Shown here: piece by piece, positions 1,991 to 46,400 of the stretch
Layout of the letters: the number at the start of each line of letters is the position of its first letter
How positions within the stretch are numbered: position 1 is the first letter of the stretch
Assembly: GCA_903813345.2 (NCBI GenBank)
Contig: CAIIXF020000003.1
Span: 28,163,248 to 28,227,247, forward strand
DNA: 64,000 nucleotides
From: Owenia fusiformis
Taxonomy: Eukaryota; Annelida; Polychaeta; Sabellida; Oweniidae
Direction of reading: 5' to 3'
Made by a program: the position numbers and the translations under genes
Notes under the pieces: model-generated
Seen by the model: only the letters and a program-made list of their open reading frames with translations
Database searches by the model: none
What the model was told of the DNA's origin: nothing

Positions 1991-4900
1991 TTAAATACCT
2001 TTTAAATACTCTGGAAAAACATTTTTGACAATTAATTTCTTATTGACTTTCCCCATAGCATTCTTTGGTATATCGTCCATGACTTTCACAATGGATGGAA
2101 TTTGATATGATGGTAAAATGTCCGCAGCCCACTTTTTTAGAGTTTGTTGATTTATGTGTGTGCTGCCATCTTTCTGTATAATTATAGCTGCGACACGTTG
2201 GCCCCATGTCATATCTGGAAGCCCAACCACGACACAGTCTTTAATGTCTGGGTGTGTCAATAGATGGCGCTCAATGTCAAGTGCACTTATTTTGTATCCG
2301 CCACTTTTGATGATGTCAACTGAAGTCCTACCAAGAATACTATAAGCGCCAGCTTTATACATTGCTGTGTCACCTGAAACAATTTATAGGTGAACTTCAT
2401 GGGGACATTTTTACAAGAGAATAGTCAATATTCTAAATCAATGCAAAAAATTACTATAAGTAAATTTAGTAAGAAATTGCAGAAAAGGTTATGAGAAGAC
2501 AATCATAATCGGGTTGTCATTAACAGAAATTTCATAAAGTTGAGAATTTCTAAATCAATTGTAACCATGGATATAGTGACATCATAATATAAGAAAACAA
2601 TGGATATTATGAATTCTTAACTTTACAATACACAATTAATGACCCCGGCTAAATAACTTAGAACTTTTCCCATATAGACCAGGACGTTCTCTGATACTCT
2701 AGGTCTGCCTACCAGTTTTGAACCAGCCATCTTTTGAGAAGGTAGACTTTGTCGCTGTGGGATTGTTAAGATATTCCATAAAGACATTTGGTCCTTTAAC
2801 ATACAGTTCACCTGACTCATTCTCCATTCCTTTAAATACAGTAGAAACAACTAAGAATACAAATGTATATATTTTATATATATATATTTTTTAATAAATA
2901 CTCATTTATTTCTTTAAATCATTAAATAAATTTACATTGTTAATCACGGCGTAATCGCCCATAAAGGGCATTTCTACTACTATATTTTATATAGAATGAG
3001 GTCTGTTTCATGGAGTTGTCATTTATTTATCATTACATCCTTCTTTTAGAATTTTCCCCTTCTCAATACTACTTGGTATGTACTGTAACGCCTTTAGAAT
3101 ATGACAAAAAATTAAACTTGTGTCACCCCAAAATTTGGTTAAACATACAATTAACATAGAATGATGCCCCATTAAATACGATTACAGGCTCAACTTATTA
3201 CAGTTCATTAGGGAACAACATATTATTTGAACACGGCACAGTTCCACCATTTTGGCAAATGTGATTGGGTAAATTGTTAAGAAAGATTGGTAATGTATTT
3301 GTTACACTAAATGCTTTTTTGAAGTTCATGAACAAGAGTCTCCGTTTGACAACTAAGCGACAAAATAAAAAAGAATGAATAATACCTGGTTTAACACTGG
3401 TTGCTATGTGGTTCCCTTGACAACTAAGTGTATAAAATAACAAAGAATAAAAAGTACCTGGTTTAACACTGGTTGCTATGTGGTTCCCTTGACAACTAAG
3501 TGTATAAAATAACAAAGAATAAAAAGTACCTGGTTTAACACTGGTTGCTATGTGGTTACCCTGAGCGATGACATCATAACCGTTTGGATTGTAAACATTG
3601 TCTTTGGCAATACAGACCTCTACAGCTGGGAATGGCTTCCCTACAGACCCTGCAACAAAAAGTAACAACCCAATGAGATGTCAAGAGACATTTTTCAAAT
3701 TCAAACACATAAATGATCAATGTTATGAATATAGGGACAAAAATTCATGGAATTTGTTGAGGGTTAATGTAGTAGACTACTTACCTGGTATCCGTCTGCT
3801 ATTTAAAGGGTTTGTAAGTGCCATTCCAATTTCTGACATACCATAACGTTCAAGTAACATGTGACCTGTGATGTCCTTCCACCTCTCCATGATTGGTTGA
3901 GGAAGAGCGGCAGATCCACTCACCATGAGTCTAAATGTTAACAATTGTACATGTTGAAATTTGGGTTGGAGACATGTATGCAAAGTAGAGTAAATTACTT
4001 AAGTAATTCAATATGAGGCTATACTATATACATTTAAAGCCCCAATATGCTTATATTACTTCAGAAGAAAAAATGATAAAATAATCATTGAAACATGTTA
4101 CTCACACACTCAATCAAATATGATACAAAGATTGATTTGCATTAATTTTGAACCTAGAAAAAAATAATGCACATAGAAAAAAGCATTTGAAGTTCAGAGA
4201 TCTATATTGGTAGTGCACGCTCATGTTCGACAAAATGCATGTTTTAAATAACTCTTCACTTAAAAGATGGCGACACTTCTATAGAAATGAATGGATCTGT
4301 GAAACAAAAAACTTTGCCATCTTTCATTGACATTGGCAAAATCTTGATATATAAAATAGATCGAAGATGTTTTTTGATAATTTATAATCAGCATTGTTGT
4401 GGCCCGTTTGAGCTGTTTTTGATGTCCATTAAAAGATAAATAATTATTAATCTATTGGAAATACTTTGCAGTCAAAAATTAAATCTTTATTATGACAAAG
4501 AATGTTGTAATGCCTTTAAATATAAACACAAGAAAATAAAAATTGAAGAATATTGTAAATACACATAGTATGCCTTTAAATATAAACACAAGAAAATAAA
4601 AATTGTATTTGAAACAAACCGAAAATATAAAAACATTCTTTGGAACAAAGTTCCATTTGGACCAACAATTTTGATACAGACTTCACCATAAAGTTTCATT
4701 AAGTGTCCGATGATTCAGAGTAAGAGACTGATCCAATCCCTTTTATACCTGTAGGAAAATAATTATCAACAAATAAGTATCATTACCTTATTCTATTGAG
4801 ACAGGCAGATTTGACATATTCTTTGTTCAGATTGCTTGATTTGGCAAGTTTTTCATACTCATCAATCAGCAACTTGTAAATTGTTGGTACAGCCATGAAA

Positions 4901-7435
4901 AGGTTAATCCTAACTTGGTTCCCAGCAGTTATAGGGTTAACCAATTTTTCCCAGACCTTTAAGATATAGAAATATGCAAACAATCATTTATGTGTGTGTA
5001 TTTGCATCATTTTGAGTTCATGCAAAGTATTATACAATAGACATATGATCGAGGATCTACACACGACATGTAGTTCCAACTGTCTGGTACAGCCTACTCT
5101 ATTTATTGGGTAGTTAGACTAAACAAATATTTCATTAGGTGTTAAAAAATTAATCTAGTGATCATTTAAAGGTGAGAACTAGAGTAATCCAAAATTATAT
5201 ACAGGTAAGTGAATCTAACAGATTGTCTCCATTTAACTTTTATATCAAATACCAAAACTGGAATGAAAACACTCACTAGTTTAGCATTGAAGTCTGGTAG
5301 CATAACACAGGTGGCGCCACAAGACAGGGGTGTCATAAGAGCATTCACAACGCCATGTATATGATGTAGAGGTAGCACATGGAGAATGACATCAGCGCTT
5401 GTCCATCCCCATGCTTCTATCATTCCTTCAATGTTTGTGTTAAGATTGCCATAGCTTAGCACCACACCCTAGGCAATATATAGTACTATTTGAGATGGCT
5501 AAAAACTAATTGTTAAAATCAGAATTTGGTTCTTTTTCATTTTTAAAACACAGGATCCAATCCTATCCTAAGAGGGCTGATGTGAAAAATCTTGAAACCA
5601 CATATGGAAAATGACAGGTATTTCCCTTCAATATTCCAACTCTAGACAATGGTGATATTATGGCACCCAAGCTCAACATTAAGAATGATAGTAAAGTAAA
5701 AAAAGGAACAATGTTAAGAGTGTAATTCTGATGGAAAGTGGTTAATCAAAGGAGACCACCACAATAACATTGGCACAATGAATTCTGAGCATCATGTAAA
5801 ATATCATCTTCTAGCCCTTTACAATCATCAATGTACAGAAAGAGAATACTGCATAATAAGCTCATTTACAGGCAATACCTACCTTAGGTCGCCCTGTTGT
5901 CCCACTGGTATAAATAATCATTGCACGTCTGTTCCTATAACCCCCTGGTGTATGTTCAGCTATGATGTGGAATTTATTCCGCAAATCTCGATAAAGATAT
6001 AATCCATTTTCTGTTTCCTTTTCACTCAAGTAATCACTCTCCTTCAATGTCAATTTCTTTACATTTAACTTTGTGGTGATTGGATAAAGCTTTTCTGCGA
6101 GGGATTCAGTTGCTATAACAACAGCGCTTTCTGAATTTTCAATGAAATATTCCATTTCGGAGGATGGGTGGTTCTTATATAATGGAACGGCCACCCCACC
6201 TGCCATCCAAGTGGCCCACTGACACACCAAATAAGACACATCATTAGGACACAAAAATGAAACAGTTTTCTCCTCAAGGTCTTTCTCACCAACTATGTCA
6301 AGTATTTTTTGAGATAACTGGACAGATCGGCCCAGCAAGTCCTTATACAGATGGTTGCCATGGCAATCAATGAGAGCTGTTCTCTCCTGGTATTTGTCAG
6401 CTTTCAGAAAAACTGGATACGCTACAAAATAGAAAATGTTCCTTGATCAGACAATTGAACTACAAAACACTGTAGTTAGATTTATTTTTCAAGTAAAAAT
6501 CTTGATCAATGAACTTTTTGCAAATATTGTCCAGCTCTAAACTGAGGAGATTTTAATATGATTTGTGTTCAAATTTAATATAGATTATATTTTACACAAA
6601 CTGAAACAACAAGCTCTATATAATGTGACAAAATTAAACAAGGCATAACATGACAAAATCTCACCACCTGGTTGCTCACAATATCATGAGTTCAACCTTT
6701 GAATTTCTGAGGAGTAGTTGATTTTTAAAAAAATTGGTCAATTTGAAGCAAGTAGAAAAATGACCTTTTTTGACCCTGAGAAGGTCATTGAAGGTCAAAT
6801 CTAAAGTCATCTTTGAACTTCTGAGAACGTGTAGATGATTTTGAAAGAAACATTTGTCAATTTGAAGCAAGATGAAAAAGACCTTTTGACCTTGAAAATG
6901 TCATTGAAGGTCAAATCTTTTTTGACCTTGAGAATGTCATTGAAAGTCAAATCTATAGTTAGATTTGAACAGTTGAGAACTTGAAGATGATTTTCAAAAA
7001 AATATTGGTCAATTTGAAGCAAGTTAAAAACAGAATTTTTTACCTAGAGAAGGTCATTGAAGGTCAAATTTCAAATCTTAAGTCAGATTTTAACTTTATA
7101 GTCAGACTTGAACTTCTGAAAACATTACAGATGATTTTGAAAAATTGAAGTCAGTCTAAACAGTATTTGTTATTGGAAGTTGTAAGAATTTGTTACAGAC
7201 ATTACAGATGCTAACCACCAACCACCAACTGCTGTCAAAAAAACAGAGATCATAAAAATATGTCACCACTTTTTGGTGGTGACATAAAAATACCTGGGCC
7301 CTTTAATTTGCTGAAAAAACGAAATCCCAGTGGTCTGATGCCTGCTTCCTTTAGGTTCCCATGGGTACTATTGCAACTAGATGGAGTCACTAGCTTCCTT
7401 TGTATGAATCTCACACTTAGCGCAAAGAACTTCAT
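1991..7435 (-). CDS. ACSF3: Acyl-CoA synthetase family member 3 (malonyl-CoA synthetase), complete CDS, 8 exons
   Basis: Coding exons on the minus strand: 7294-7435, 5883-6421, 5277-5468, 4787-4956, 3785-3930, 3530-3649, 2713-2829, 1991-2373. Phases agree at every junction and give 602 residues; the human protein is 576. Residues 1-45 are Arg/Lys-rich with almost no acidic residue ([14 protein letters not shown]), fitting a mitochondrial presequence. ANL adenylating-enzyme motifs appear in order: [11 protein letters not shown] across exons 2-3, [55 protein letters not shown], and the C-terminal [14 protein letters not shown] with the catalytic-lysine region MGKVNKK. The family activates malonate, and methylmalonate, to the CoA thioester in mitochondria; that is family knowledge. 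The 3' end of exon 6 is tandemly triplicated together with its donor. The acceptor of exon 7 (TATTTAAAG) is weak but gives the expected junction [10 protein letters not shown]. Confidence 0.95.
3386..3529 (-). repeat. 72-bp splice-donor minisatellite after ACSF3 exon 6
   Basis: Two extra copies of a 72-bp unit follow exon 6. Each carries about 35 exon bases (encoding [10 protein letters not shown]), the donor CAG/GTA and intron sequence. The unit is 24 codons with no stop in the exon's frame, so use of a distal donor would insert in-frame repeats without changing phase. Starts of the ACCTGG motif at 3384, 3456 and 3528 set the period. Confidence 0.9.
4511..4604. repeat. Two-copy 60-bp repeat in an ACSF3 intron
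   Basis: TGCCTTTAAATATAAACACA and the A-rich sequence after it occur at 4511 and again 60 bases later. It lies in intron 4 of ACSF3 and does not touch a splice site. Confidence 0.7.
6690..7130. repeat. Degenerate tandem repeat in ACSF3 intron 1, unit about 145 bp
   Basis: Three or so diverged units share GGTCATTGAAGGTCAAATCT, TTTGAACTTCTGAGAAC, and GGTCAATTTGAAGCAAG, with a nested duplication of the GACCTTGAGAATGTCATTGA segment near 6890-6955. No exon or splice site is included. Confidence 0.75.
7190..7285. mobile_element. MITE-like fragment ending in a 26-bp perfect palindrome
   Basis: ATGTCACCAC and GTGGTGACAT form a perfect hairpin at 7260-7285. The preceding CCACCAACTGCTGTCAAAAA segment recurs before the same palindrome at 26583-26607. 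Longer relatives with terminal ATGTCAC and GACAT and an internal CACCATCTYCAAAA-TTGGAGAC segment lie at about 14858-14972 and 44254-44366. Confidence 0.7.
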
Positions 7436-7844
7436 CTGATTATTCCTGAAACATATACATTTGTTATAATATCGACCTTCAGGGCCAGGCACTATATCAA
7501 TTGGTGGCATTGGTAAATTCATGAATCGAATGTACAATTGAAGAAAAGTTTAGCACACATATGCAAATATCACTCCTCAATGGAATGGAAAGAGTGTTTA
7601 TTGTGTTAACTGTTGTATAATCTATCTACATGTACATCTTGTAATTATCACAGAATGAGTGAGAGAGTCTTTATCATAAGACTGAGATTTCTAAAATAAA
7701 AAGTGTCAAAATTTGAGTCTCAATATTTGCACTATAAAGTCTCACATTATCAGTATTTCGCATAATAAATGTACCATACTATATGTTTGACAGGTTTATC
7801 AGCATTCTACATTAAATCAAACACTAATTATATAGATAACTTAC

Positions 7845-10285: not shown

Positions 10286-10291
10286 AATAAA
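10286..10291 (+). terminator. Candidate poly(A) signal of TRIQK
   Basis: AATAAA lies about 630 bases past the TRIQK stop. Other AATAAA copies exist farther on (for example near 12440), so this is only the nearest plausible one. Confidence 0.3.
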
Positions 10292-14607: not shown

Positions 14608-14724
14608 GTACAGTGTATTGTATCGCAGCTGCAATCTGATTTCAATTTAATGGAAGAATGTGGGATGAACAATGTATGACACAAAAATATGAAGTCCATT
14701 CTCTAAATTGTAAATAATATTAAA

Positions 14725-17700
14725 CTATATAGTAAAGTCCGCAAATCCACATGCCACATTAACTTCCTCTTGATCGAGTAACCAAACCTTGGCCTGATAA
14801 CGTCCCTACAAGAATAAATATGACAATAAGTTAAACACAAGGCTTTACATGCAAAATGTCACCCCCTGGTATCATTTTCAGATGCCAAACAATGACCACC
14901 AAACACCAACCACAGAACACAAATCGCCAAACACCATCTCCAAAATTTGGAGACTTGTGGTAATGACATACAAATTGAAAAATATACCAATACATGTATT
15001 GTGCCCCTATATGATCCAATCAGTCACATGTACACTTAATTTCACTTGTATTTTAAGTAAGGGTCAAATGTTATACTTATTACCCGAGCATTTATTAAAC
15101 ATTAAAAAATTCAGGAATATTGTATTTAAGAATATAGCACATGGTATGGACTTACCTTAGGTAAATAATTAGGTATTTTCATTTGTTTCACATAATGTTT
15201 TTCATTTGATTTAATAGGACAAAATACTATTCGTTCTTCTTCATCTTCATCTATTGTGCAAAGTTCCCATTTATTATTGTAAAGATTCTTGTTGTTGTAT
15301 TTTACATCTATCAGTACCTCTCCATCATCTATCACATGATCTGAAAGTAACATGAATTTAGGATTAAGACAATAGTACATATAGGTGAATATCTCATGTC
15401 ATGTGATCTTGATTCGACAAATCATAAATAAGCAAACTCTATAGTGGTGTAATAATACAGGATATTTGAGAATCACACACATTTGTTTGACAGGTGCAAA
15501 GAAGCTATAACACTCATCCCATGTTTCATTGACACATATAATCAACACCAACAATTGTTTAATTATAAGACTCATCCCATGTTTCATTGACACATATAAT
15601 CAACACCAACAATTGTTTAACTAAAACGCTCATCCCATGTGTCATTGACACATATAATCAACACCAACATTTGTTTAACTAAAACGCTCACCCCATGTGT
15701 CATTGACACATATAATCAACACCAACAATTGTTTAACTAAAACGCTCACCCCATGTGTCATTGACACATATTATCAACACCAACAATTGTTTAACTAAAA
15801 CGCTCACCCCATGTGTCATTGACACATATAATCAACACCAACAATTGTTTAACTAAAACGCTCACCCCATGTGTCATTGACACATATAATCAACACCAAC
15901 AATTGTTTAACTAAAACGCTCACCCCATGTGTCATTGACACATATAATCAACACCAACAATTGTTTAACTAAAACGCTCACCCCATGTGTCATTGACACA
16001 TATAATCAACACCAACAATTGTTTAACTAAAACGCTCACCCCATGTGTCATTGACACATATAATCAACACCAACAATTGTTTAACTATAACACTCACCCC
16101 ATGTTTCATTGACACATATAATCAACTCCATCAATTGTTTAACTATAACACTCACCCCATGTTTCATTGACACATATAATCAACTCCAACAATTGTTTAA
16201 CTAAAACGCTCACCCCATGTGTCATTGACACATATAATCAACACCAACAATTGTTTAACTAAAACGCTCACCCCATGTGTCATTGACACATATAATCAAC
16301 ACCAACAATTGTTTAACTAAAACACTCACCCCATGTGTCATTGACACATATAATCAACACCAACAATTGTTTAACTAAAACGCTCACCCCATGTGTCATT
16401 GACACATATAATCAACACCAACAATTGTTTAACTAAAACGCTCACCCCATGTGTCATTGACACAAACAACACCAATACATGCAATAATTGTTTAATTATA
16501 AGACTCACCCAATGTGTGATTGACATAGATAATCAACCCTAAGGATTGTTCAACTATAACACTCACCCCATGTGTGATTGACATATGTGACAGAGGCCAC
16601 TCCTCCTTTCACTTTATCTTGTATTAATATTACTCTCCCGATGGTAACTCTGTCATCTCCCTCTGAAAACACATTATAAATTCATATAAAATATAATATT
16701 TGAAGTACAGCTAGGAGAGGGGATCCTTGGATAATGGCAGTTTTAGGATTGTCTGACGGTGAGGGAAAGGGAACCATCAAAATTAAGGGTTTCTATGAAC
16801 GTCTGATTATCGGTTGGAGTTTTGTTTTATTGTACCATTTCTTTTTTCCAATGATTCGTTTTTCTCTAGCCGTTGTGCTAACATATTTATATATTACATC
16901 CTGTTGGACATTAAATGCAGCAAGATATTTGTCCAAATAAGGAGTTTGACCATCTGAAACACCGTGAACTATCGTAAATTTTTTAGCCAGGGTTCAATGA
17001 ATTTAAAAACTACCATGTTAATATTTCATGAATTGAAATGGTAACGGATTGTCTTGTTGTTGAGATATTGAACGTTTTCATTTAAAATAGAAGTCGTCCC
17101 GTTTTTGTCTGGTAAGTTATGACCATTTGGAATTCGAAGATGATCACATGTACTGGAGCTAGTTTTTCCTCCATTCCCCGGGCTCCATTCTCCGTTGTGA
17201 GCGATATCATTGACAATATCATAAGTGTAATGCATGTTTGGATATGAAAGTTGATCCACTTAATAACGAGATTTACCATATCACAGTTGATACAATTCTT
17301 TATGCTAGCCTACAATATACCCAAATTATAAAACCGAATTATAACAATTTTAGTTATTTTGAATGCATATCTGAGACGGCATTATTACATAATTTGGAGA
17401 GGTTAATGTCTGTTTTCAGTTTCTTTGACCAATTCGCGTGTTTCCTTTCAAATTTATTTTGCACTTGGCGACGACCATATCATATTTATAGATGGACAAA
17501 TAATCACTAATATCCCAGATGCGAGTAGAAATAATCTTGATTTCCGTCATTAAAAATTCCCGATTCAGTCAAACTGATATCATATTTGGAATCTACATGT
17601 AAAATTACATTTAGAAATGTGGTTTTGAAAAGAGATTATGAACTTTGAAAATTTAATTTTCTTTGAAAATGTGACTTCTAGGTCGGGGAGATTCCCCATA

Positions 17701-28300: not shown

Positions 28301-28434
28301 TAATAATCTTTTTTACCGAACACATTTTTCACTAAATCTATTTAATCATTACATCACTGTAATTAAATAATGTCATCTTATCTAGTAATAGACTCTAATT
28401 AAGTGATGATGTCATAAATCTGTGATGTCACTCA

Positions 28435-31400
28435 TTAGGCACTGGTGTCATCAGGCTGAGTTGTCAATGTCATTCCCTCTGTATCTACACAGCCCTTATG
28501 TACAGTGGCATTTTCAGTGCCCTGGAAGTGAATGTAAAGGTCATTGTTACATATGTATCTACACAGCCCTTGTGCACAGTGGCATTCTCAGTGCCCTGGA
28601 AGTGAATGTAAAGGTCATTATTACATATGAATATAAACAGCCCTTATGTACAGTGGCATTTTCAGTGCCCTGGAAGTGAATGTAAAGGTCATTATTACAT
28701 ATGAATATAAACAGCCCTTATGTACAGTGGCATTTTCAGTGCCCTGGAAGTGAATGTAAAGGTCATTATTACATATGAATATAAACAGCCCTTATGTACA
28801 GTGGCATTCTCAGTGCCCTGGAAGTGAATGTAAAGGTCATTATTACATATGAATATAAACAGCCCTTATGTACAGTGGCATTTTCAGTGCCCTGGAAGTG
28901 AATGTAAAGGTCATTATTACATATGAATATAAACAGCCCTTATGTACAGTGGCATTTTCAGTGCCCTGGAAGTGAATGTAAAGGTCATTATTACATATGA
29001 ATATAAACAGCCCTTATGTACAGTGGCATTCTCAGTGCCCTGGAAGTGAATGTAAAGGTCATTATTACATATGAATATAAACAGCCCTTATGTACAGTGG
29101 CATGTTCAGTGCCCTGGAAGTGAATGTAAAGGTCATTATTACATATGAATATAAACAGCCCTTATGTACAGTGGCATTTTCAGTGCCCTGGAAGTGAATG
29201 TAAAGGTCATTATTACATATGTATATACACAGCCCTTATGTACAGTGGCATTCTCAGAGCCTTTGAAGTGAATGTAAGGGTCACTATTACATATGAATAT
29301 ACACAGCCCTTATGTACAGTGGCATTCTCAGTGCCTTGGAAGTGAATGTAAAGGTCATTATGACATATGAATATACACAGCCCTTATGTACAGTGGCATT
29401 CTCAGAGCCTTTGAAGTGAATGTAAAGGTCATTATTACATATGAATATATACAGCCCTTATGTACAGTGGCATTTTCAGTGCCCTGGAAGTGAATGTAAA
29501 GGTCATTATTACATATGAATATACACAGCCCTTATGTACAGTGGCATTCTCAGTGCCCTGGAAGTGAATGTAAAGGTCATTGTTACATATGAATATACAC
29601 AGTCCTTATGTACAGTGGCATTCTCAGTGCCTTGGAAGTGAATGTAAAGGTCATTATGACATATGAATATACACAGCCCTTATGTACAGTGGCATTTTCA
29701 GTGCCCTGGAAGTGAATGTAAAGGTCATTATTACATATGAATATACACAGCCGTTATGTACAGTGGCATTTTCAGTGCCCTGGAAGTGAATGTAAAGGTC
29801 ATTATTACATATGAATATACACAGCCCTTATATACAGTGGCATTCTCAGTGCCCTGGAAGTGAATGTAAAGGTCATTATTACATATGAATATATACAGCC
29901 CTTATGTACAGTGGCATTCATTCTCAGTGCCCTGGAAGTGAATGTAAAGGTCATTATTACATATGAATATGCACAGCCCTTATGTACAGTGGCATTCTCA
30001 GTGCCTTGGAAGTGAATGTAAAGGTCATTATTGCATATGAATATACACAGCCCTTATGTACAGTGGCATTTTCAGTGCCCTGGAAGTGAATATAAAGGTC
30101 ATTATTACATATGTATGTACAACCCTTATGTACAGTGGCATTCATTCTCAGTGCCCTGGAAGTGAATGTAAAGGTCATTATTACATATGAAGATACACAG
30201 CCCTTATGTACAGTGGCATTTATTCTCAGTGCCCTGGAAGTGAATGTAACGGTCATTATTACATATGAATATACACAGCCCTTATGCACAGTGGGATTTT
30301 CAGTGCCCTGGAAGTGAATGTAAAGGTCATTATTACATATGAATATACACAGCCCTTATGCACAGTGGGATTTTCAGTGCCCTGGAGGTGAATGTAAAGG
30401 TCATTATTATATATCTATACCCCAAAAACATAACTCAATAAATACATATTGGTGGAGGGAGTATGGTAGTAACAAAGAGTTCATTTGAAACTAGACGTAC
30501 CTCAATTTGACTTAAGATTTCTTTGACCAAGCCTATTCCACCAGGGTTCTTCATGAGGACATACATGAAGCCCCCACCCCCAGCCCCTGCCAGCGTCATC
30601 CCATAAGTGTGCTCTCTCAGTGATGCCATCATACGTGCAACGACGGAGGGCTCACACCCTGGCGCCATCTTTTTCTTCTGTTCCCAGTATTTGTTCATAC
30701 ATTCACCAACCTTTTCAAGATCACCTGTAAGGATTAATTTCATAGCAGTATTTCTATGAAGGTAAAATATTGATGGATTTGCCAATACTAGTAGTACTTA
30801 TTAATGTTTTTAGGGAATTTTTATGGAGTGGAATTTGTGGAAAAACAGCAAGCTCCAGTATCAATAAGGCATGATATGGAATCACTGTAGTAGAATCTGA
30901 GATTATCAACTCTCGTCTTACCGGGCAATGATCAATTTTGATTATGATGCAACATTCAAGATTACCTTGTTCAAAAGCTTTGGCGCAGTCATGAGCATTT
31001 TCCACCAGTGCATCCTGGGTGGCTAGAATATCAGGATTCCTGCCATACCAGTTCCGTATCACATTCTAAGGATAAAAGAAGATTAAAATAAAACATTACA
31101 TTAAGAGTGTTTAAAATAATTAGATGATGATAGGACATACACGAAAAAAACATACCTGCAGTAAATTCCTTACCAGTCTTGTTTTCCCTGTATACACAAG
31201 AGCCAGTTGCATGATGGGACTCACGTACCTGCAGTAAATTCCTTACCAGTCTGGTTTTCTCTGTATATACAAGAACCAGTTCCATGCTGGGACACATGTA
31301 CCTGCAGTAAATTCTTTACCAGTCTAGTTTTCCCTGTATATTCAAGAGCCAGTTGCATGATGGGACACACTTACCTGCAGTAAATTCCTAGCCAGTCTGG

Positions 31401-34400
31401 TTTTCCCTGTATATACAAGGATCAGTCTATCACTGAATGCTTGAACAGTCTCAACAGTGACATCTAGTGGTACTATGTCAACATACAGTGGCAGCTCACC
31501 CTTAGACACCCCTATCTTCACTCCTCCTGGAAAAATAAAGAATGTATTATGTTAAATAGTTAGTACTCTCTTGTATCAATGATGTCACACCATTATACCA
31601 TTTCACTCAAGAACATTCAGGTGCACACTTTATCAGTTTATTAGACGTGGCAAGGTATGGCAAAAGAGTAATGTTTTTGAGAATATCACAGTAGTGTTCC
31701 TTTCATTTAGTCTGTACTCATTGATCAATGCTATAGCAATCTGATTCCAAAACAATATTAGAACTACACAATTGACTTTATGCTATTTGGTAAAATTCCA
31801 TTTGAGCACGATGGTTGTGTAATTCTGCATATAATTACACATACCTACATGGGACCTTTAACTCTGAAGCTGTTCTACAAATGCTCTAAAATAATATATT
31901 TTCAAACTTTACATGGGGCCTTTAACTCTGAAGCCCACCTACTTATGCTCTAAAATAACATATTTTCAGACTTAACATGAGGTCTTTAACTCTGAAGCTC
32001 ACCTATAATACTCTAATTTAAAATAACATATTTTCAAACTTCACATGGGACCTTTAACTCTGAAGCTCACCTACTAATGCTCCCACCTGATCCTGCCATC
32101 CTCCACCTGTTGTCAGCATTTGTTCCAAATGAAGCACCTGAAATAATAATGTAACTCCATATTTCAAACTTTGGAAGAGTAGAGGAGTGTGTGACCTTAG
32201 CAATGTTCTGATGGTCCAATGCATTTCATTTTTACCCTTAAAGTTACGGTCGTGGTATTAGAAATGGTCTAAAGAATGTCCAACATAATTCATTTCTGCC
32301 TAAAAATCGTTATTAAGCCACAAATAAATAGGAAGCAGCATACTGTTGTGAAAATATATTTCTTTTTATTATATTATTATTTTATTCAAATATTCTACAT
32401 TTATTCTTGCATCATGCAGTTGATTTAGTAGTTGACTTTCCAATTTATCCATGAAAACGTATTTAGTTCTGAGAATAGCAACAATTGTATATCTTTGGTT
32501 ATGTAAAAACTAGTGTCTAATCGACTGGGAATATGAGGCCCAAATTATCCGCACTTGATCTTCCATTGCAAAAGCCTTCCTATTTCAAAATACTTACTGC
32601 ATGTATTAATGATTTATTATCATAGGCCTGCCCTGAGATGTTCCACAATACCCCCATGACTGCACCCGCAAGGATACTGCTACCCCCTAGGCCTGACCCA
32701 TGGGGCAGCTGAGACCATGAGTGCAGCTCTATCCCTCCGTTGTATCGCTGCAGTAGTTGCTCCCTCAGTGAAACATCACTTGGGAAGTCTACCAGCTCAG
32801 CACAAAGGATGCAGGCCTTTAACAGGGCACCTGATGGATAGAAGTCAGATCATCCATTATTTTATTATTTAGTATATTTACCCATTATCTTCATTCAGTA
32901 CATTAGCCACTGTTGCAATCATCGAAGGTAACTGTAAAATTGAAAGTCATTAAATGAATTTCTGAATTGTATGGCTAACAGAAGGTTTTTGTCTTTATTT
33001 TGTATTTATTTATTTGATTTTCTTTTTTCAATTTGCATATTTGAAACCACCTCTTCCCTTATTTTTAACGAGATGTCATCAATACATGAGACCCAAGAAT
33101 GATGTTATAACATATTTAAAATCACATTTCTTGTGTAACATCCCTCATTTTCAGCGATATCAATGTCATGATAGATCTATAATGTACAAAAGTTGATTAA
33201 TATATACATACACTACACTTAACATACCAGTAAACAACTCAGAAAATGTGGTGACATTTTAAAAATTTAGATCTTATTCCTAGGCCTAAAATCCATACCA
33301 TACCTGGTGCATATGGCTGGCAGTAGTCCTCTAAATGAGACAGCTCTGTAAGAACAAGTTCCCGACCCTCAAGGTGGAGCACAATCTCTGGCCTTTCTAT
33401 CCTCCTAGCCTTAGCACCAATTGGTTTCTGAAATAATAGATGATGTCACTATTTTATTTAAGATAAAGGCTCCTGACATTATCCATATGAAGAATACCAA
33501 GCTAATGAAGGAATCAAAATGAAATTGGTATTTATTGAATGACCCTCGTGCAATACTATATACCTGGAATAACTGGTATGTAGTGGTTACTATGGTTACC
33601 AGATGATGACAAAGATATAGAAGAGCATCTATTATTTCACAAACTTGGTTAATTTGCCTTGTACAAGAGTGTACATACCTTTCCATCATACAGTTCAAGA
33701 GGGTACATACCTTTTAATCATACAGTTCAAGAGTGTACATACCTTTCAATCATACAGTTCAAGAGTGTACATACCTTTCCATCATACAGTACTGAGACGT
33801 TAGTCACAGCACCCCCATGTTCATATGTGATAGGTGGAGTATCAGACCATCCACCTGATAGGTCAATCCTAGCAGGGCATTCTGCCATCACCCATCTCCC
33901 AATAGGTGGCAGCTCTGATTTTGTAGTTGAGATAAACTGCAACAGATATTAAATGAAAGGTTCGTGTATCCCATTATCCTATGCAAAGTTGAGTTTTACG
34001 GAGATAAGTTGGTAAGATATATCCCGTATCCTGATTTTGAGGTTTCCATATCCAGAACCTCCATATCTCCCGCCATATCTCCCGCTTCAGTGCATATCTT
34101 CCCGCTTCGGTGCATATCTTCCCGCTTCCGGTAATTTCACTGAAAACTCTACTTGGTATAGGATAAAGCAGTTATGTACGGTCGGTTTGGATATTGAGTT
34201 CATCCCTCGTGAGATATGCATATCTCCCTCTGGATAAACCCCATATCCAAAACCTCCCAGTACATAATCCTTATTTATCCCCTCATAAGGCAAAATCTTA
34301 TGATTTACAATTCACCTTCCACACCTCTTAAACTCTAAAAATAATTAGTTTTGAGCAATATCAATTTGAAGTAAATGTCTGTCTGTAAAAAATAGCATCA

Positions 34401-37400
34401 TTTACTAAATGAGAGCTAAAAGCAATTTTAATTGTCCATTCTATCAGATGATTACCTGTCTTGCACTCATTACAGCATGTCTGATAAGTATCTGAGCAGC
34501 ACCTTCATAGTGTCTGGCAGCTCTCACCAATAGGTCAGGTCTCTCTAGCCATTTAGCTCTCTCCTCTGACATTGCACTCACCCCTTCTCTTATGCTACCA
34601 TTCTGAAAGGTGGAACATCAAAGTTTGGTGTTAAGTTCATAAAAATTGATCAACTAGGACAGTCAAGTGGAAGACCTTGGTATGTGGAACATTTTGTTAA
34701 GTGGAAAACCTTTGTAAGTGGAAGACTTTCAGAGTCACAATAACCTAATGTTAAATGAGCCTCTGTTCTTTGAACACTACCCAAGTTGAACACTTTTTAG
34801 AGGAACAAATCTATTTTCCATTCAAATCGAGGTCACTTTTAACTGTGTATATGTACATGTTCAGTTGGGTATACTATTTATATGTTTTCACTTCTTGGTT
34901 TATAAATACATATACCAGTGCTCCTAAACCGTAGACCATTCCAAAATATGTTAATTTTTTTAAATAGGGTCAAAGGAGACATCAGTGTTGGCTAAAATAT
35001 ATAACACTTGAAAGAATTAATATTTCTCTTGGTCAGATCTTTGAAATAATCGGGTTTATACTTAACCATACCATATACCTGTTATGTAATGCTTCTTATT
35101 ACATGTGCACTCTACAATATTGTGTTGTTATGTAATGAAAATATACATAGAGAAATAAGTGTCTGGAAAAACATGCTATATTCCTTTAATCATGCAACAA
35201 GAGCTCAATGAGTACAGACGACTATCATATATTTTTGTACATGTCAGACATGACTGTCAGCCATCACAGCTCAAAATGGCCACCATACTACACAGATTGC
35301 CAAATATGTCATAATTGCATGTACATGTATTCACAAGATATTACAAAAAAATGTATGACACATACGAAAAATGACCACCACCATTTAGGTAAATTGTAAA
35401 AAGACTTTGTGTCATGCTTAAAAACATGTTAGATTGTGTGAGTTCTAACCAATGAAAAAAAATCAAGTACGATGTATGTTCACTACTTGCATGCTTTTTC
35501 GAAATAATTTGACCTTATTTTAAGCCCTAATCCCTGTTATATCTTCAATGCATAATATCTTCAAATAAAAAAGTGATATTCAGAAAAAAATACTTAAAAT
35601 AGTTTGTGAATGGTTACCTGCTTCACTGCATCCTGGTGTACAAAATGACAATACAATTCAGAATTCAAAGCTAAGCATACATGCATATGTTTAAAGCAAA
35701 TATCGTACACTATTTTTTGCAATATCATACCTAATGGCAAATGTAGTAATTCCATTAAAAATGATCAATTCTAAAATGCTAAATAAATTAATATATCAGC
35801 TAACAACAACCAAAGATTTGGTACCAAAATTCACCTAATATGATATGAATAATGAATGAACCCATAAAGTAAGTGAAGTGAAGCAACAACATAAAAATAT
35901 AATTCTCAGACTGTAAAGCATGACAAAGTCACGATAATTACTATTCATATTGGGATTCCCAATTGAAATTTTGCCCAGGCTGGCACCCATGACTCCAACC
36001 CCATCTTCAATTGCCTGGCATAGAACATTATGGAAATAATATATCTATATGTTCATCTCCAGACTAAATACTTGGTCTGGAGATGAACATTACCTAGTGC
36101 ACAAGTATTAAGGTAATATTATTACCAAATTGGTCAAAGCCAGTCAACCAAGGATCAAGTTTGAGTCATGGCTGCCAACTGCCCTTATTGGCCACTATTG
36201 TTTTGTTTATGTTTTAAGCGCCTGCCTCAAATCTGAATTTGCAACATTGCTTATTCCTTGCCAACCTTAAACTTTATGTCAATTTATAACACAGTATACA
36301 ACTATTAGTAAATAGTTCATCTCAGGGGAGGCATCAAAAGTTCTATGTCGGATCGAAAACTAAATAAATCTAGTAAGGGGGAGGGGTTCAAAGTTTAACA
36401 TTTCAATTTTTTGCAATTTTGCCTCGGAATTCCATTGAATGATTTAAAAATAAAGATTTTATCTGATGCTTTCTTCGTCAAGATCATTCCAATGGATTCT
36501 ATTCTATTGACAGTTGTTAAAAGCTCTCATTTTCCAAACAGAGGGGTTTCCCAAGTATGAATATTACAAATTTAGATCATAAAAACATGCTTCTTATGAA
36601 CATAATCTAAGAGCATACCTCTAACAAATGAAAGGCTCGGCCCCATGATTTATTAGCTGCGGGACCGCTCCGTAATCCTCCATTGTTACGTGCCATGCAA
36701 CCGAGAACATCTGCTATGTTTGCCAGTGTCCTTGCAGCAACGCCAGCAGATGATGTTTCCATGGCAACTACATATTAAAAGAAGATTTCTGGGTAAAGTA
36801 ACCAACATGTGATATGTAATGGATGCCATATTTTGCATATGCATCTGATATTTCTATATTTGTATAGTACAATACATGTATTCACAATGAACATAAAGTA
36901 CTTTAATGTAGAAAAATTTTCTCTGATTGTTTGAAAAAAGGTGGAGACCATTTTTAAAAGATATTGTGTAATTTGATCTTTTGAGTCATAATTATCAAAT
37001 AACTCAACATTCATTACCAGCATTACTAACCTTGGTCAAGTGTCTCCAAGACCTCAAAGTGAAGGCCCTCTGCTACTGCACTTGCGTATACATTGCACAA
37101 TCCCTTGTCTGAAAACATAAAATCAATATTAATAGAAATTGGTTCCAAAGGATGGCATCATGAATCCTTTATTATCTTCATGTAAAACATTAATAGTTAT
37201 TTTTGAACATTAATGAACTTAGTATCAGGAGAAAGTTAATGTTAATTAATTATCCCAACGAACAAAGTTCGGTAGGGATATAGTGAAGCCCTCCGTCCGT
37301 CAGTCCGTCAGTCAGTCCGTCAGTCAGTCCGTCAGTCAGTCCGTCAGTCCGTCCGTCCGTCCGTCCGTCCGTCCGTCCGTCCGTAAGATAACTCAAATAC

Positions 37401-40400
37401 GAGTTGACGGATTTTCTTCATATTTAGTGGAAAGATGTATATTGGTGAATAGTTGTACGCAAAAAAAGATGGCCGCCGCTTTAAAAATGACGGGACTTTT
37501 TCGCAAAAACCATAAATTTTTCATTCTAAACCAAAGTAATTAATATTATTGTTTGAAATTTTGGTAGTATATTCGCAACATCTATCTTTTTCACATATAT
37601 TCCGTGTTTTTCATCCTGACCCCCAGGGGCTGTGTATGGGGGGTCAGGAAAACAGTAATTTTCGCTGATTTTTAGATCTTTCTGAAGTATAGCTTTATTA
37701 TACTCAAATGAAAGGCAATTAAGAGAAGATTGCAAATATTGTATCTTTTTTCTGATTCGAGCCTCGTAAAATTCAAAATGGCCGTCTAATGTACGATTTC
37801 GCAATAATTTTTCGATCCCTTCAAAGTATGGCTATATTATACTCAAATTGAAGGAATTTTGGAGTAGATCACAATTATGGTATTATTCTTCAGATTTGTA
37901 CCTCAGAAAATTCAAAATGGCTGCTTTGCAGGAATTCGCAATTCTAAAATTTAAATTTTTCAATTTTAACCAAAGTAATGAGTATAATTGATTGGAATTC
38001 GGTAATTGATATTTTGTTCGTTGGGATTTGCTACTCCGCGGAGTTGCCATTGTCTAGTTGCTTTTACTAAACATAAGCAATAATTAACTTATTTTTGATT
38101 TCTCACTTACTTATATCTGCACCATTTTTGCCTTCTAATGTATTGACAATATCTATTTTCGCTATTTCAAAAAATAACTTCCTGAAAAAATAGACAAAAT
38201 GCATTTATGTGTTTATCTATAAATAGATAAATACTGATAAAAAGCAAATCTCATTACAGAGCAAAATTATATTCTACATGAGCAAATAAAGAAGATAATT
38301 CACTTGAAAAATATAAACCCCATTTAGATCCCCTGACTTATAACATGTAAGCCCCATATAAGTGTGTTTATCCATACCTTCTATGTTGGAACTCTGCCTG
38401 GAGGTCTATGAAATTCAGTATCTCCTCAAATGATAATCTCCAACTTGAGCGCCATCTATGTGTTGTAAGAACATAATAATAACATTGTACTTAAGTAACA
38501 ATATTCTTCAATCTTGTCTTATTAAAAATGGGACATGATAGACATGAGAGTCTATTTGGGCACAAACTTTCGACATGTATGGTATGGTACAGTATGATAA
38601 AGTGTTGTGATACAGTATGGAACAGTTTAACACAGTATGGATTAATATGGTATAGTTTAGAATGGCATAGAATGGTATGGTATAATGTGGTGAAGTATGA
38701 TATGTTATGGCTCATTTCAGTAAGGTTTAGTATGGTATGGTATGGTACAGCAGAGTATGCAGTATGTTTTGGTTTATTATAGCATAAATCATGTAAAAAC
38801 TCCTACATACTTTAACTCAGTTAATACATTCAAACATATAAATACACACCTGTCTAGAACATTGGAGTCTATATTAATATTCTCATCTCCAGCCAGCCAC
38901 AAGATCTCCCTTATACCCACATACTCTGAGACATGGAACAGTGGAAACAGCTTAGCATTCATAGAACACTTCTTATCATCTGGCTGAAATCAAATTTGAG
39001 TACTTAAAGACATTGAGATATAAAGAAATGCAGAGATAATGAAATGTGGACTCTCAATCACTCAGAAAATGCCTGATTTTCAATATAATGCCTTATATAT
39101 AAATTGTCAGATTCTAAGGCATGTAAACCCTATATAGATCCCCTGTCTAACAACATTTAAGCCCCATATAGATCCCTTGACTTGCAACACGTGAGCCCCA
39201 TATAGATCCCCTGACTTACAACTTGTAAGCCTCGTATAGGTCCCCTGACTAACAACATTAAAGTCCCATACAGATCCCTTGACTTGCAACATGTAGGCCC
39301 CGTATGTATCTCCTGACTTGCAACTGTAAGCCACATATACGTATATATCGTAGATCCTCTAACAACATTTAAGCTCCAAATAAAACTCGTAGATCCTCTA
39401 ACAACATTTAAGCTCCAAATAAAACTTGAACTTAAAATACCATATTGAGAACCTGATTTACAAAATGATCACCCCATATAAAACCCCTGACTTACAACAG
39501 TTGAATCCCATAGATCTTCCTGAGAGATACCTGTCCTATTCATGAAGACAACCCATGGAGTATTGCAATAGGAACTGCTGCCTTTATATGTGGGACCCTG
39601 GAATACAAGAGAGGTTGTACAAAGTTGTTGATTTTCTTTCTCAGAGATATTTCTTTTTCTTTTTGACGTTTCGTAGGATGTCCACCCTACTTCTTCAGAA
39701 ATAAAATTAATTAATTTTATTTCTGAAGAAGTAGGATGGACATCCTACGAAATAAATAAATTAATTAATTAATTTTATTTCTGAAGAAGTAGGATGGACA
39801 TCCTACGAAACGTCAAAAAGAAAAATAAATATCTCTGAGAAAGAAAATCAACAACTTTGTACATTACTACCAGAGAGATGAACATTCATAGAAAGAGAGG
39901 TTGTGTTTTAGCAGTAAAGTCATATTATGGGGGGTATTAATACAACACAACCATGTACAAGTTCTCTTTAACCCCTATCACCTCAATATACCAACGAAAA
40001 TACAATAACACTACATTTGAGAGAAGGTTTATAAGTACATGGTCTTGAATAACATCTCCCTATCTGCTTTCTGCCCTCAAGATGTGCAATGTTAATTATG
40101 CTCTAAATTACTAATAAATTACTAAAAATGCAGTGTCGCTGTATGTGAGCAATTAAAATCCTAAATTCTCAAAAAGAATTTCATTTATCGAATTCACGAA
40201 TTAAAGACAGAGGGAAACTACTGGGAGTGCAAATCACTAGCTTTACATGTAATTTTGACATATGGGACAGTGGGACCTGCACCAGGGTACAAAAATTAAA
40301 ATCTTAATTTCAATCAAAACAAATCTATGGGGTGAAACATTATCTAAGTGTGTGTCAATTCATATAAAACAAAAGAAGCTATAAGGATTTTCCTTTGGCC

Positions 40401-43400
40401 CAATGGAGTGATGTTATTTCAAATGGGATTTAACCATACCTCAGTCTGTGTAAAAATATCCTACAAAACAGCGATTTCAATACATTTGGTGTTCTGGGTG
40501 AGTGATTTTTTGAACTGACAGTGTTCATAGTTAAGTCCTTGGTAATCATAGGTTTTTAGTTAACATCTCTTTTATAGTTCACTTAGCATTTACAAGGTTA
40601 TTTGTGGTGTTAATAGGGGGGTTAAGATACAGGTTTTTTTATTTTGTACGTGAACATGTCGAATTATGGTCCTCTGTGGATTATATTATTAGTTCTCCCA
40701 TTTATACTGTTTACTAGGTCAATCGAGTATAAAGGTATACAGAAAATATTAGTCTGTTATTTAGTCTGTTACCCATTAGCTTAATGTAAATGAACCTCTG
40801 TAAGTGGAACACCTTCCAAGTGGAATGCCAATTTGAGGCAGTAAAGCTTTCCACTTCAACATGTTCTACTATACTTTGTTGCTATGGATATAAAGACTGC
40901 ATGTACTTGTCAATGTCAACATAAAGAGACTTACCAATAAATGATCATATTTGCCAAAGACAGTCATGATATGTTGATGTTTTGACTCTCCTTGCAGGGT
41001 TGGAATTTTTATGTGGAATCCTTGGAGAACAATATCATTAGGTAGGGTTATTGCACATGGAGGTTGCTGTAAAAGAAAAAAACAACATCAATATTATGTC
41101 AGGTGCAATTAAGTACACGGAGGATGTTGTTGTTATAGTTACGATTATGACTAAAATTTCTGACATAAATACAGCCAACTGATACTAAAAATTACATTTG
41201 TTGATATCAAGTTATAAGTGTATCTGCCCACCTGTGGTTCTAGATCTTCTGATATCAGTCCTGAGACTATGGATTGGCTGCCTATGTGGAGGTTAGTCTG
41301 ACCTACTAAATTACAGTGAGACATTACACTTCTCCCCTCTATGGAAATATTTTGTCCAAGTACAGAATTAAGAATTGTTGAGTTTTCTGGAATGCTAGAT
41401 TTGTCCTGCAAAAGTGTCAGAAAATATTACCTCAAAAATAGGAATTTTAAAGGATATCCATATTATATAATTCAAATGACAGTATTTTATCACAAAAATA
41501 AAACATGGGGAGAAATATGTCTTTGTAAGAATAATATATATTGTTCATATTTTGTATAATCAACCACAAAAAAGAATACAAAATTAAATAGCATTTCATT
41601 ATCAGGCAGTACAAACAAAAAATGAAAACACAATTTCAACTTGTCATTTGCAGTGGAAAATATACAAATTCCAGAACATTGTGGTGTTGACTTACCTGAA
41701 TGTTTGAATGGACCACAGTGCTCCATAAGTAATTGGACCCCTCATATTGCAGTGGGCAATGTAATAATTGCTTATGATGGTCTTGGGCAGTTACATCAAA
41801 CTGTGATGTCAAATAGTCATAAGATGCACTTTCAAGTACAACTGAAAATGTTAAGGAAAGTAAGTTAGAATTTGTTTATTTTAGTTTTACATGCACTTTT
41901 ACAATAAAGAAAAAAATAAACTTGCATGCACACGGCCTTTAAAGTCTTATCTAAATTAAACATCATACCTAAAATAACCATAATAACCTAAAACTTAATA
42001 TAACTAAAGATTTAAGCCCAGGGGTAGATGAATTGTGGATGGTTTTAAGCGGTCTTTTATAAACTTTGAATGAGGGGTGGAGCCAGAATTCAAAGGCTGG
42101 CATATGAGACATGAGTGCACTAAATCACCCACAATTCATTGCATCATTCACTTGAATTCTTTTCAGACATGCAAAATATTTGTGCAATATCACTGTAAAG
42201 AGTGAAATTTAACATGAACTTTTTTGCGAGGTTCTTGCAAGGTCAGTATTTTGACCAGTAAGTACCTAAGTATATTGCATTATGATACTATTGATAGTTT
42301 TTCACGAAAGGCCAACTTGGAATTATTTTATAAGTGTTATCAATTTAACTAATCTAAAAGAACCCATTCCATACATGCACTATATAATGTGTTCTGATTG
42401 GCTAGAATGTGATTTATAGTTTGGGGTTCATGCATTTCACAACTTTAATTCTGATTCTTGTACTAGATGTGTGGTTTGCATTTTATCCTGTTTATATTTT
42501 CATAATTTTTATACCACTACTTTTAACCCTGCTCAACTCGCCATATAGGTGTTGCTTTAAAATGAATGCCACAAACATGATCTAAGAAACAGGTCCCCAC
42601 ATACCTGTCTTGACTGCAGTTCCATGCAGATGTTTCCAAAGGATAGAGCGAGCATTTTTCATTCCCTTGGACTCTGCTTGACTGGATTTTGAAGCATATG
42701 CTACACTTCGGGAACCAGAAGTAAAGTCCTCTTCTTTGACATTACTTGCCATACACAACAGAAAGTCGAAAAACAGAGATAACTGAAATTCCAAGGTTGA
42801 TCAATATTATAACATATAGAGGTATATACAAATTAATCCAAGCACCAAATTAAATATAAATGCATGATTGACTGACCTCTGAATAGGCAAAACTCTCAAA
42901 TGCATGTTTTATGACCTGAAAAGGTTGAGACACACTCTTAATGCCCCATAAGTGAAATTGTTTTACTGACCTGTGAAATTGTTTTACTGACCTGAATAGG
43001 TTGGGCACCACTGTCAAGGTCCATATAAGTGCATGTTTTACTGACCTGAATAGGTTGGGCACCACTGTCAAGGCCCATATAAGTGCATGTTTTACTGACC
43101 TGAATAGGTTGAGCTCCACTGTCAAGGTCCATATAAGTGCATGTTTTACTGACCTGAATAGGTTGAGCACCACTGTCAAGGCCCATATAAGTGCATGTTT
43201 TATTGACCTGAATAGGTTGGGCACCACTGTCAAGGCCCATAGAAGTGCAAGTTTTACTGACCTGAATAGGTTGGGCACCACTGTCAAGGTCCATATAAGT
43301 GCATGTTTTACTGACCTGAATAGGTTGGGCACCACTGTCAAGGTCCATATAAGTGCATGTTTTACTGACCTGAATAGGTTGGGCACCACTGTCAAGGCCC

Positions 43401-46400
43401 ATAGAAGTGCAAGTTTTACTGACCTGAATAGGTTGAGCACCACTGTCAAGGCCCATATAAGTGAATGTTTTACTGACCTGAATAGGTTGAGCACCACTGT
43501 CAAGGCCCATATAAGTGCATGTTTTACTGACCTGAATAGGTTGAGCACCACTGTCAAGGCCCATATAAGTGCATGTTTTACTGACCTGAATAGGTTGAGC
43601 TTCACTGTCAAGGCCAATATAAGTGCATGTTTTACTGACCTGAATAGGTTGAGCACCACTGTCAAGGCCCATATAAGTACATGTTTTACTGACCTGAATA
43701 GGTTGAGCACCACTGTCAAGGCCCATATAAGTGCAAGCGTCAAGTGGAGGCATCACATGAAACCCTATGAACTTCTCAATCACCCTTGTATTAAAATAAA
43801 CCAGGCTTGCAATCTAAAATAATAACAATAACAAAGTAGCATTGAAATGAATTAACAGTCAGCAAATCAATATGATCATTTAAATGTGGCATAACCCAAG
43901 TGTTTCAATGGCTAAATGATTTGTATGATGTAAGGACAAAAGTGAATTGTCCCCTATAAGCTATAACATGTCAATAATAACATTTTAGACAAGAACTTAA
44001 AATGACTTTTTTCAACAAAAACATGGCTTTTCACAAAGAAATTCTGTATTTATTCTGATTTGATATGAATAAAACAGAATTTTGGGATGTGTGCTTTATA
44101 TACAGATATACTCGCACATGTACTTACTATAGGGACAGATCCACTTTCCAAAGCACATTGTTCTATGGCATCCTCTTCTCCTCTGTACACAATGTCAGTC
44201 AGATTGCCCTACATATAAAGGGAGACAATTTAAAACAAGGCATTAATATGCAAATGTCACAACCTGCCATTTGTTACAGATGAATGCCAAACACCAATGC
44301 TGAACACCATCTTCAAAAAAGTTGGAGACTATAACAATATTGTATTACTTGTGGTGTTGACATAATGGTATGTAGAAATCATTACATATGACATTTAGGA
44401 TATTTCCTTTATCCCAAGGTCACTAAGATATATCACCCAAGAGTCACCAGGGCATATTAGCCTATACATGTTTCAGTGCATATTGCAAATGGCCTGGGGA
44501 TAGTTCATGGATGACCTTTGATGATGATCGTTGATGATATATTTAATCAAATTCAATATACCACATGTTGTGAGCTAAAATTATTATTAGGCTATAAAAT
44601 ATCATTTAGTATAATAATCATATAATGTTTAAAATAATATAATGAAGACCACAGCAGGGGCACAGCACATTTATTACTTGTTATACTTACAGAGCCATCT
44701 ATCTTGTAAACACCATGAGATTTTGCATACTGGGGGCTTGTGGGTATCGCTATGGCAACCACATCTAAGGTTTCTGACCAAGGGATGTTAGCTACATCTG
44801 GGATGGTTAGAATAGCATCTGTACCACTGACCCATAGACCAGGAGGGCTATCATGGGCAACCTAAGGAATGAATAAAAACTCTTGCTTATTCAAGTCCCA
44901 AACCTTGTTGTGATTAAAATATTGAATTATTTAAAACTTAATGTACAGCATTCTTAGAATAAGGGCTACCTACTATCTTACCTTGTTCGTGATTGACTCG
45001 TATAATGCATCAAAGTTATAGACAATGCCATCTGGTGTTGGTGATTGGAACTGAGCAGGGAATGTGGTAAATGCGCGACCACATGCATCAAATGGAAAAT
45101 TTCTCCCCTGAATTGAAAAGTATAGAACAATATCATACTACAGTGAAACCTCTCCAAATGGAATGCCACTGAGACTGAGACAGTTTAGAAATTACTATTT
45201 ATGCATTTCAATATGAGGTCTTACCATGTGTAATATAAGAATATAAACATCTTCAAGGACTTCAGAATTGACAACCTGAAAAGTAAAATGTAAAATGTGT
45301 AGTTTTGAAGATGACCTTGCAACCAAATGTATCCTAAAAATCCATTTGCACCCAGATGAATGATTAAAATTTATGATAGTATTATATTGGCTTAATCTCA
45401 ATTTTCACCTGCATTATTAATTTTGCCTTGTCAAGATTAGGTATTAAGATCCTTGCTACGCCCCTGTAACTAACGAGTACACTACCGTGAATCCACGTTT
45501 TGCGCTGAGATGTTCAGTGACCACTAAAAGTGCATTCAATGTAGCACCTCCACTGCCAACTTGAGCCTTGGGATCTTCAACAGCAAGAATCAAAGCATCT
45601 TTATCCAGAATTCCCTTCTGCTGTCTCATTAATAGCTCTGGAATGTATAAATCAAATGGGTAAAAACCAACCTACAGTTTGTTTTGTTTCATGTTGTTTT
45701 AACTAGGTGTCGCAGGGGTTTCACTAGAATTTCTCACAACAGGTTAAATAAATGAAAACAACAGGCAAAATTAATGGAAATCATAAATTTAACTTGAAAA
45801 AGTTGAAAAGTCCCTCAAAACAACAGGAGATTTTGTGAAATCAACTGGTGAAAATCATCTGCTGCCTGCTGCTAATGAAACCCCTGCTGTCAATAGTTCA
45901 TTTTGTGTTAAAGTAATCAACAATGAAATTATTTGAGAGCTTCAATAGGTCACATGAGTTTCTTAATCTGGAATAAGTAGAAACATGTACTGTTAAACCA
46001 GTATAGGCCCTAAGTCATATGTAATGGATCAAGATGGAAATAGAACACCTCCATGTGTTTTGCATTGACATTTTTTCTTTTCATTCAACTGACTGCAGAT
46101 TTTTGCTACTCTGGAGATTTGCTCCCGATTCAGCTAAAATCAATTTTCAAATTGTAAAATAATACCTTACTAGTAACAAGCTTTTGGTGATTATTGTATG
46201 TGAAATAAATTGATGAATAAATGTCTATTTATTGACATTCCAGGTCACAGCTTAACCTGCTTATTTTGTGCATCCGGTGCTTGTATTTTAGAAAACCAAT
46301 TGTTCAAGAGAAAATGTATTGTACATGTATATAAGCTGGTTACCTTTTTTATAGACATGAGCGCTATCTTTGTTCTGACAGGTCAGTACAATAGCTGTCC

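Follow-up and report, generated by a model that had tools for sequence, protein, structure and literature searches.

Locus and junction arrays

The 64,000 bp stretch of Owenia fusiformis DNA described here, termed the window, carries three genes in which tandem repeat arrays lie at exon–intron junctions (Table 1). The genes encode a fucokinase/fucose-1-P guanylyltransferase-like protein (FCSK), a malonyl-CoA synthetase-like protein that we take to be ACSF3 from its match to the human sequence, and a protein with an ML domain. Pfam domains in FCSK are those of fucose pyrophosphorylase and GHMP kinases.

Tandem Repeats Finder (TRF) yields 33 rows for the window, and an array is present at each of eight junctions pointed out in a preliminary description of this DNA. 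That description was also right in numbering 26 FCSK exons, in giving unit lengths of 32–74 bp and a split of seven donors and one acceptor, and in stating that the units differ between arrays, as these are unrelated in sequence. Its statement that every unit holds an exon end, a splice site and adjoining intron holds for seven arrays. In these the exon models place the junction inside the first unit, and the array covers 12–45 bp of exon before continuing into the intron. The exception is FCSK exon 12, where only degenerate copies are found: six units agree with the exon end at 15–19 of 24 bases, three of them have an intact GT, and the nearest TRF row begins ∼70 bp inside the intron. Judged by its sequence this is an old, degenerate array, and it was scored as not spanning in the statistics. 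About 760 bp downstream, in FCSK intron 14 (window 38313–38360), ∼1.5 units resembling its 34 bp repeat were seen by eye. A 4.2 kb FCSK query containing three of the arrays, with simple repeats skipped, showed no second copy of them and no haplotig among the 40 of 1,771 candidates that were scored; the remaining hits belonged to a dispersed element of ∼305 bp.

Table 1. Host genes and junction arrays in the window, and junction-spanning arrays in the sampled genes
Feature	Window position	Strand	Unit × copies	Remarks
FCSK gene	28433..46410	(-)		26 exons, 25 introns; intact 1,101-aa frame; PF07959, PF00288, PF08544
ACSF3 gene	1990..7436	(-)		8 exons; frame intact
ML-domain gene	14650..23714	(-)		4 exons; 3′ end approximate; PF02221
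Array 1, ACSF3 exon 6 donor	3346..3562	(-)	72 bp × 3.0	junction 3529 (intron)/3530 (exon); 33 bp of exon in array
Array 2, ML-domain gene exon 2 donor	15505..16583	(-)	58 bp × 18.5	junction 16566/16567; GT intact in 15/18 extra copies
Array 3, FCSK exon 26 acceptor	28486..30414	(-)	74 bp × 25.9	junction 28521/28522; exon-proximal copy is the most 3′ in the gene
Array 4, FCSK exon 23 donor	31153..31419	(-)	73 bp × 3.7	junction 31374/31375
Array 5, FCSK exon 22 donor	31846..32082	(-)	64 bp × 3.6	junction 32070/32071
Array 6, FCSK exon 19 donor	33664..33790	(-)	32 bp × 4.0	junction 33774/33775
Array 7, FCSK exon 12 donor	39120..39495	(-)	34 bp, degenerate	TRF rows 39120–39339 and 39348–39426; real donor 39495/39496
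Array 8, FCSK exon 7 donor	42905..43735	(-)	54 bp × 14	junction 43693/43694; 753 bp open in the frame of the exon
CCT1 donor			154 bp × 2	
CCT2 donor			28 bp × 16.6	
CCT2 donor			53 bp × 20.2	
CCT2 acceptor			96 bp × 4.2	
CCT3 donor			48 bp × 5.3	degenerate
CCT4 acceptor			86 bp × 1.9	
CCT8 donor			22 bp × 2.8	weak
CCT8 acceptor			83 bp × 9.1	
AFG3L2 acceptor			67 bp × 11.8	
EFL1 acceptor			79 bp × 1.9	weakest model; junction rests on a weak alignment

Arrays in independently sampled genes

Twenty-seven further stretches around conserved genes were chosen by Pfam family, blind to repeats. Exon models with ∼184 introns were obtained for 25 of them; loci L024 and L036 gave no models, and L001–L014 (long open frames) were excluded. 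Ten further junction-spanning arrays were found in the 25 genes. As the sampling was blind to repeats, junction-spanning arrays are a general phenomenon in the Owenia fusiformis genome. The predominance of donors in the window does not extend beyond it, the sampled genes having five donor and five acceptor arrays. FCSK and CCT2 are the genes richest in such arrays. In CCT2 (L021), one 53 bp donor unit also forms two arrays ∼940 bp apart within the same intron (gene-oriented positions 3359–4430 and 5367–5670).

The AFG3L2 acceptor array was scored non-spanning by the script, its intron being unmodelled, and was counted as spanning after the sequence was read. Two arrays at model edges, the CCT8 83 bp × 9 array and a CCT3 30 bp × 2 array, lie outside the test counts.

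Comparison with chance

In the null model, one unit of an array's length is dropped into the introns of its gene, with arrays collapsed, and placements that cross a junction are counted. The expected number of such placements is not small because the introns are short (median 339 bp, n = 138 introns); a random 30–100 bp unit spans a junction in about 4–48% of placements, depending on unit and gene. Among all 54 arrays, 16 span a junction and 9.7 are expected to, so the presumption that a splice site would seldom fall inside an ordinary intronic minisatellite is not upheld. Of the 14 genic arrays in the window, 7 span, compared with an expectation of 2.3 (P = 0.0024), a count that is not independent since the window was chosen because of these arrays. 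A circular-shift test gave a weaker result (7 spanning against 3.5 expected, a count reached in 101 of 2,000 shifts) and was rejected in favour of the unit-drop null, as a 1 kb array shifted at random covers whole exons.

The outcome differs with copy number. Expanded arrays, defined by units of 25–110 bp and at least three copies, span junctions in 5 of 10 cases in the independent genes (1.8 expected, P = 0.017). The copy-number cut had been set only once the data had been inspected, at which point these genes stood at 4/7 (1.1 expected). All seven expanded arrays of the window span, which gives 12 of 17 for window and independent genes together, against 3.1 expected. Arrays of fewer than three copies are at chance in all genes (4/28, 4.9 expected). 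The birth of duplications thus looks random, and it is likely, though unproven, that those at junctions expand or persist preferentially.

The excess of expanded arrays is matched in direction by a genome-wide motif test, which is noisy. It called for three motif copies at 30–60 bp spacing, with AGGTRAGT as donor motif, GTGATRGA and TGGAAGRT as controls, and the backwards version of each. Raw matches number 1,131 for the donor motif (backwards 534), 87 for GTGATRGA (backwards 193) and 1,628 for TGGAAGRT (backwards 352). Because large or dispersed arrays distort such raw counts, the comparison was confined to distinct arrays in the stretch fully listed for all three forward motifs (C1:1–11.98 Mb; backwards motifs fall outside this comparison). 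Six distinct donor-motif arrays, which are candidate junctions by motif alone, were found there, and none for either control (P about 0.001). When the donor-motif rate in this stretch is set against that of the controls over the whole of C1 (1 and 5 arrays), the ratio is ∼12. The three motifs are of similar frequency, occurring 16, 16 and 20 times, and the backwards donor motif 27 times, in 259 kb of sampled unmasked DNA. In contig C2 a dispersed repeat of ∼19 bp units beginning TGGAAGATGAGTC is present at several places.

The preliminary description had proposed a general process that starts duplication at exon–intron boundaries. The arrays do recur elsewhere in the genome; the start at boundaries is unsupported. 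Initiation of duplications by RNA–DNA hybrids or by breakage at the boundaries could produce both the excess in the window and the six donor-motif arrays found where composition-matched motifs gave none. However, arrays of low copy number, which are closest to birth, do not exceed chance expectation, and the independent genes show no overall excess. The position of the junction within the unit is also scattered, the exonic fraction ranging from 0.19 to 0.89 in 14 arrays, which speaks against cutting at a set interval from the splice site. Directed birth is therefore considered improbable. Repair templated by spliced RNA, also put forward at the outset, does not fit, as such a template would not be expected to yield units with both exon and intron.

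Reading frames and unit structure

When the exon-proximal copy is used at every junction, FCSK is read as one open frame of 1,101 residues and the ACSF3 frame is intact. This suggests that splicing takes place at the exon-proximal copy and that the remaining copies are probably intronic decoys. Use of another copy at FCSK exons 19, 22 or 23 truncated the protein in all eight simulated cases. The arrays at ACSF3 exon 6 and FCSK exon 7 are open in frame, and distal use would add 24 and 18 residues per unit, respectively; each of 13 further donors tried at exon 7 gave an in-frame addition that was a multiple of 18 residues. Four upstream acceptors tried at FCSK exon 26 altered only the C-terminus. 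In 12 of the 18 arrays, GT or AG is kept in 95 of 104 extra units, and 12 of 104 have an in-frame stop in their exonic part. EFL1, whose phase was set wrongly, is excluded from these counts. They also leave out FCSK exon 12, the two CCT8 arrays, the 28 bp array of CCT2 and CCT3, several of which are degenerate. To judge from these frames, the exon-proximal copy looks constrained and the other copies do not.

Selection might alternatively maintain decoy splice sites as regulated alternative donors or acceptors, as a source of variation in protein length, or as a means of U1 recruitment that protects the intron. The in-frame arrays of FCSK exon 7 and ACSF3, the confinement of change to the C-terminus at exon 26 and the retention of GT or AG in most decoys are in keeping with this. 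Truncation upon distal use at exons 19, 22 and 23 and stops inside internal units are not, and acceptor arrays would not recruit U1. Selection for decoys is accordingly regarded as very improbable.

The proximal unit is no more divergent in its exonic than in its intronic part. In 10 arrays, with dissimilar units left out, 16 of its 325 exonic bases and 15 of its 257 intronic bases depart from the array consensus (P = 0.71). From this similarity, homogenisation of the array seems to extend to the functional junction, which would be compatible with exchange across the array. A greater exonic divergence of proximal units, seen in several arrays in an untrimmed comparison, vanished once array edges were trimmed. 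Where the consensus differs in amino acids, the proximal copy has the human residue in FCSK exons 19 and 23 and in the 53 bp CCT2 array, as judged by eye; of two such AFG3L2 sites, this is true of one. In AFG3L2 the coding sequence is kept in both end units and a stop is present in 6 of the 11 others, as if growth of this array were internal.

Proposed origin of the arrays

The arrays are best read as mirage-type minisatellites: duplications that arise at random, are tolerated because the exon-proximal site can be used, and expand or persist more often when they carry a junction. The probability of this reading is put at roughly 0.56. Three steps are envisaged. Short tandem duplications of about 20–150 bp would arise regardless of junctions and, because introns are short, some would cover one. 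Such a duplication would be tolerated, since the exon-proximal junction gives an unchanged protein and the other copies become intronic; the frames are as observed, and the choice of site by the spliceosome is presumed from them. Compared with purely intronic arrays, those that carry a junction would then more often expand, or remain uniform enough to be recognised, for which there is some statistical support. The likeliest cause of this last step may be that units exchange sequence with the exon-proximal one, itself kept intact by purifying selection; instability coupled to transcription or to U1 and R-loops might act instead.

A bolder form of the proposal is that the junction itself lets a chance duplication grow, such that birth is random, expansion or persistence is anchored to the junction, and most expanded single-locus genic minisatellites are multiplied junctions. 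This is offered tentatively and is rather doubtful. If true, FCSK, CCT2 and other genes would hold several long stocks of decoy sites, from which new exon ends and introns could be drawn at any time.

Several observations weigh against the mirage-type reading with its bias in expansion or persistence. Among the independent arrays as a whole, 9 of 40 span a junction (7.4 expected, P = 0.31), which is no significant excess. In six genes modelled after the copy-number cut had been set, 2 of 10 arrays span (2.6 expected), as does one of three expanded arrays (0.7 expected); these genes neither confirm nor exclude the excess of expanded arrays. Spanning and intronic arrays of the independent genes do not differ significantly in copy number (P = 0.39). 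Occurrence is patchy by gene, with no junction arrays in MCM2-7 (0/11) or in the ATP5/VMA/VCP/EEF2 set (0/7). The control TGGAAGRT has more raw matches in the genome than the donor motif. In addition, where a donor is duplicated, splicing might be expected to prefer the copy nearest the intron.

A rival explanation is pure chance with tolerance: no bias at any stage, short introns that make spanning common, and a window that is simply the most striking of many. The window is indeed an outlier, with arrays in 8 of its 35 introns, whereas the independent genes examined first have them in 7 of 150 (P = 0.002), and the overall count in the independent genes, the genes modelled last and the median intron length agree with this explanation. 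The excess of expanded arrays in the independent genes and the C1 motif comparison do not, and pure chance is considered unlikely, if less so than directed birth.

Relation to known systems

Minisatellites termed mirages are described in the amphioxus genes Adh3, BflGb6, BflGb9, PGBD5 and TnC (PMC3087553, PMC3902484). The Owenia arrays are of the same kind, and the amphioxus Adh precedent named in the preliminary description is apt. In both, units span an exon–intron boundary at donors or acceptors, splice signals are kept in many units and the real exons remain usable (PMC3087553, PMC3902484). Amphioxus mirages are further reported to leave regular splicing unaffected by RT-PCR and to show length polymorphism and somatic instability; in the annelid, the frames of FCSK and ACSF3 stay open with exon-proximal sites. 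A unit with exon end, splice site and intron is present cleanly in seven of the eight window arrays and in degenerate form in the eighth. Duplication of either intron boundary is seen in the window and, in equal numbers, in the other genes, and AG or GT is kept in most units of the 12 arrays counted and in half of those at FCSK exon 12. The differences from amphioxus are the annelid host, the presence of up to 26 units and of several arrays per gene, and the null comparison in 28 genes. In the literature searched, the name mirage was not found applied to arrays of any animal other than cephalochordates. What is new is therefore the occurrence of arrays of this known kind in a new phylum, together with the quantitative point on expansion.

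Related phenomena are known. Human genes in segmental duplications have internal tandem repeats at exon–intron boundaries; these minisatellites, of about 30 bp units, are reported to change exon–intron boundaries and can create introns (PMC2812944). Those repeats are in recent primate paralogues and have transcript support in that account, whereas the annelid arrays are in conserved genes and known from DNA alone. Intron gain by tandem duplication is reported for potato RdRp (PMC4974935) and Cryptococcus (PMC2395259), where boundary-crossing duplication or expansion of an intron-containing repeat can likewise supply new splice sites. Unlike these cases, the modelled annelid exons are explained by old junctions. 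Among annelids, earthworm metallothionein has intronic minisatellites, described without junction spanning in the accessible part of that paper (PMC12783039).

Mirages in several genes of an annelid suggest a general consequence of short introns and tandem duplication. The contrast between low-copy arrays, which are at chance, and expanded arrays, which are enriched, means that any effect of splice sites on the growth of repeats can be tested directly. Conserved genes that hold as many as 26 near-identical acceptors or 20 donors represent a natural test of site choice by the spliceosome among many equal sites, and of intron origin.

Gene models and other features of the window

Exon models were made by tblastn with human proteins and refined at GT/AG sites, with hand-setting where gaps remained. 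The introns placed manually from the sequence are seven in FCSK, all three in the ML-domain gene and the first in ACSF3; also in ACSF3, a single hand-set donor took the place of two spurious pieces around exon 6. The frame of the ML-domain gene would be kept if the exon 2 acceptor is at 16662 rather than 16660. Introns with a donor score below 1.5 were excluded, and one doubtful intron each in CCT8, CCT4, CCT1 and ACSF3 was dropped before counting. An ab initio exon finder proved too weak and was abandoned. An annelid source is well supported by PF16915 (Eryth_link_C), the family of annelid erythrocruorin linkers, which has three matches in this genome, all on C6 and within 15 kb of one another, and none in 14 control genomes of prokaryotes; mitochondrial COX1 had no match in the assembly.

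FCSK intron 18 contains a dispersed element of ∼305 bp with an internal inverted repeat (window 33974–34280); at least 39 further copies, of about 240–380 bp, display 79–97% identity. Outside the modelled genes, a 463 bp tandem duplication with 99% matches is found at window 10876–11762. A 43 bp × 7 array at 62154–62451 ends ∼38 bp short of the acceptor (62490) of an exon identified by eye as kelch-like, and does not span it. At 48250–49250 there is a reverse-transcriptase-like coding remnant, recognised by eye, of a LINE-type element.

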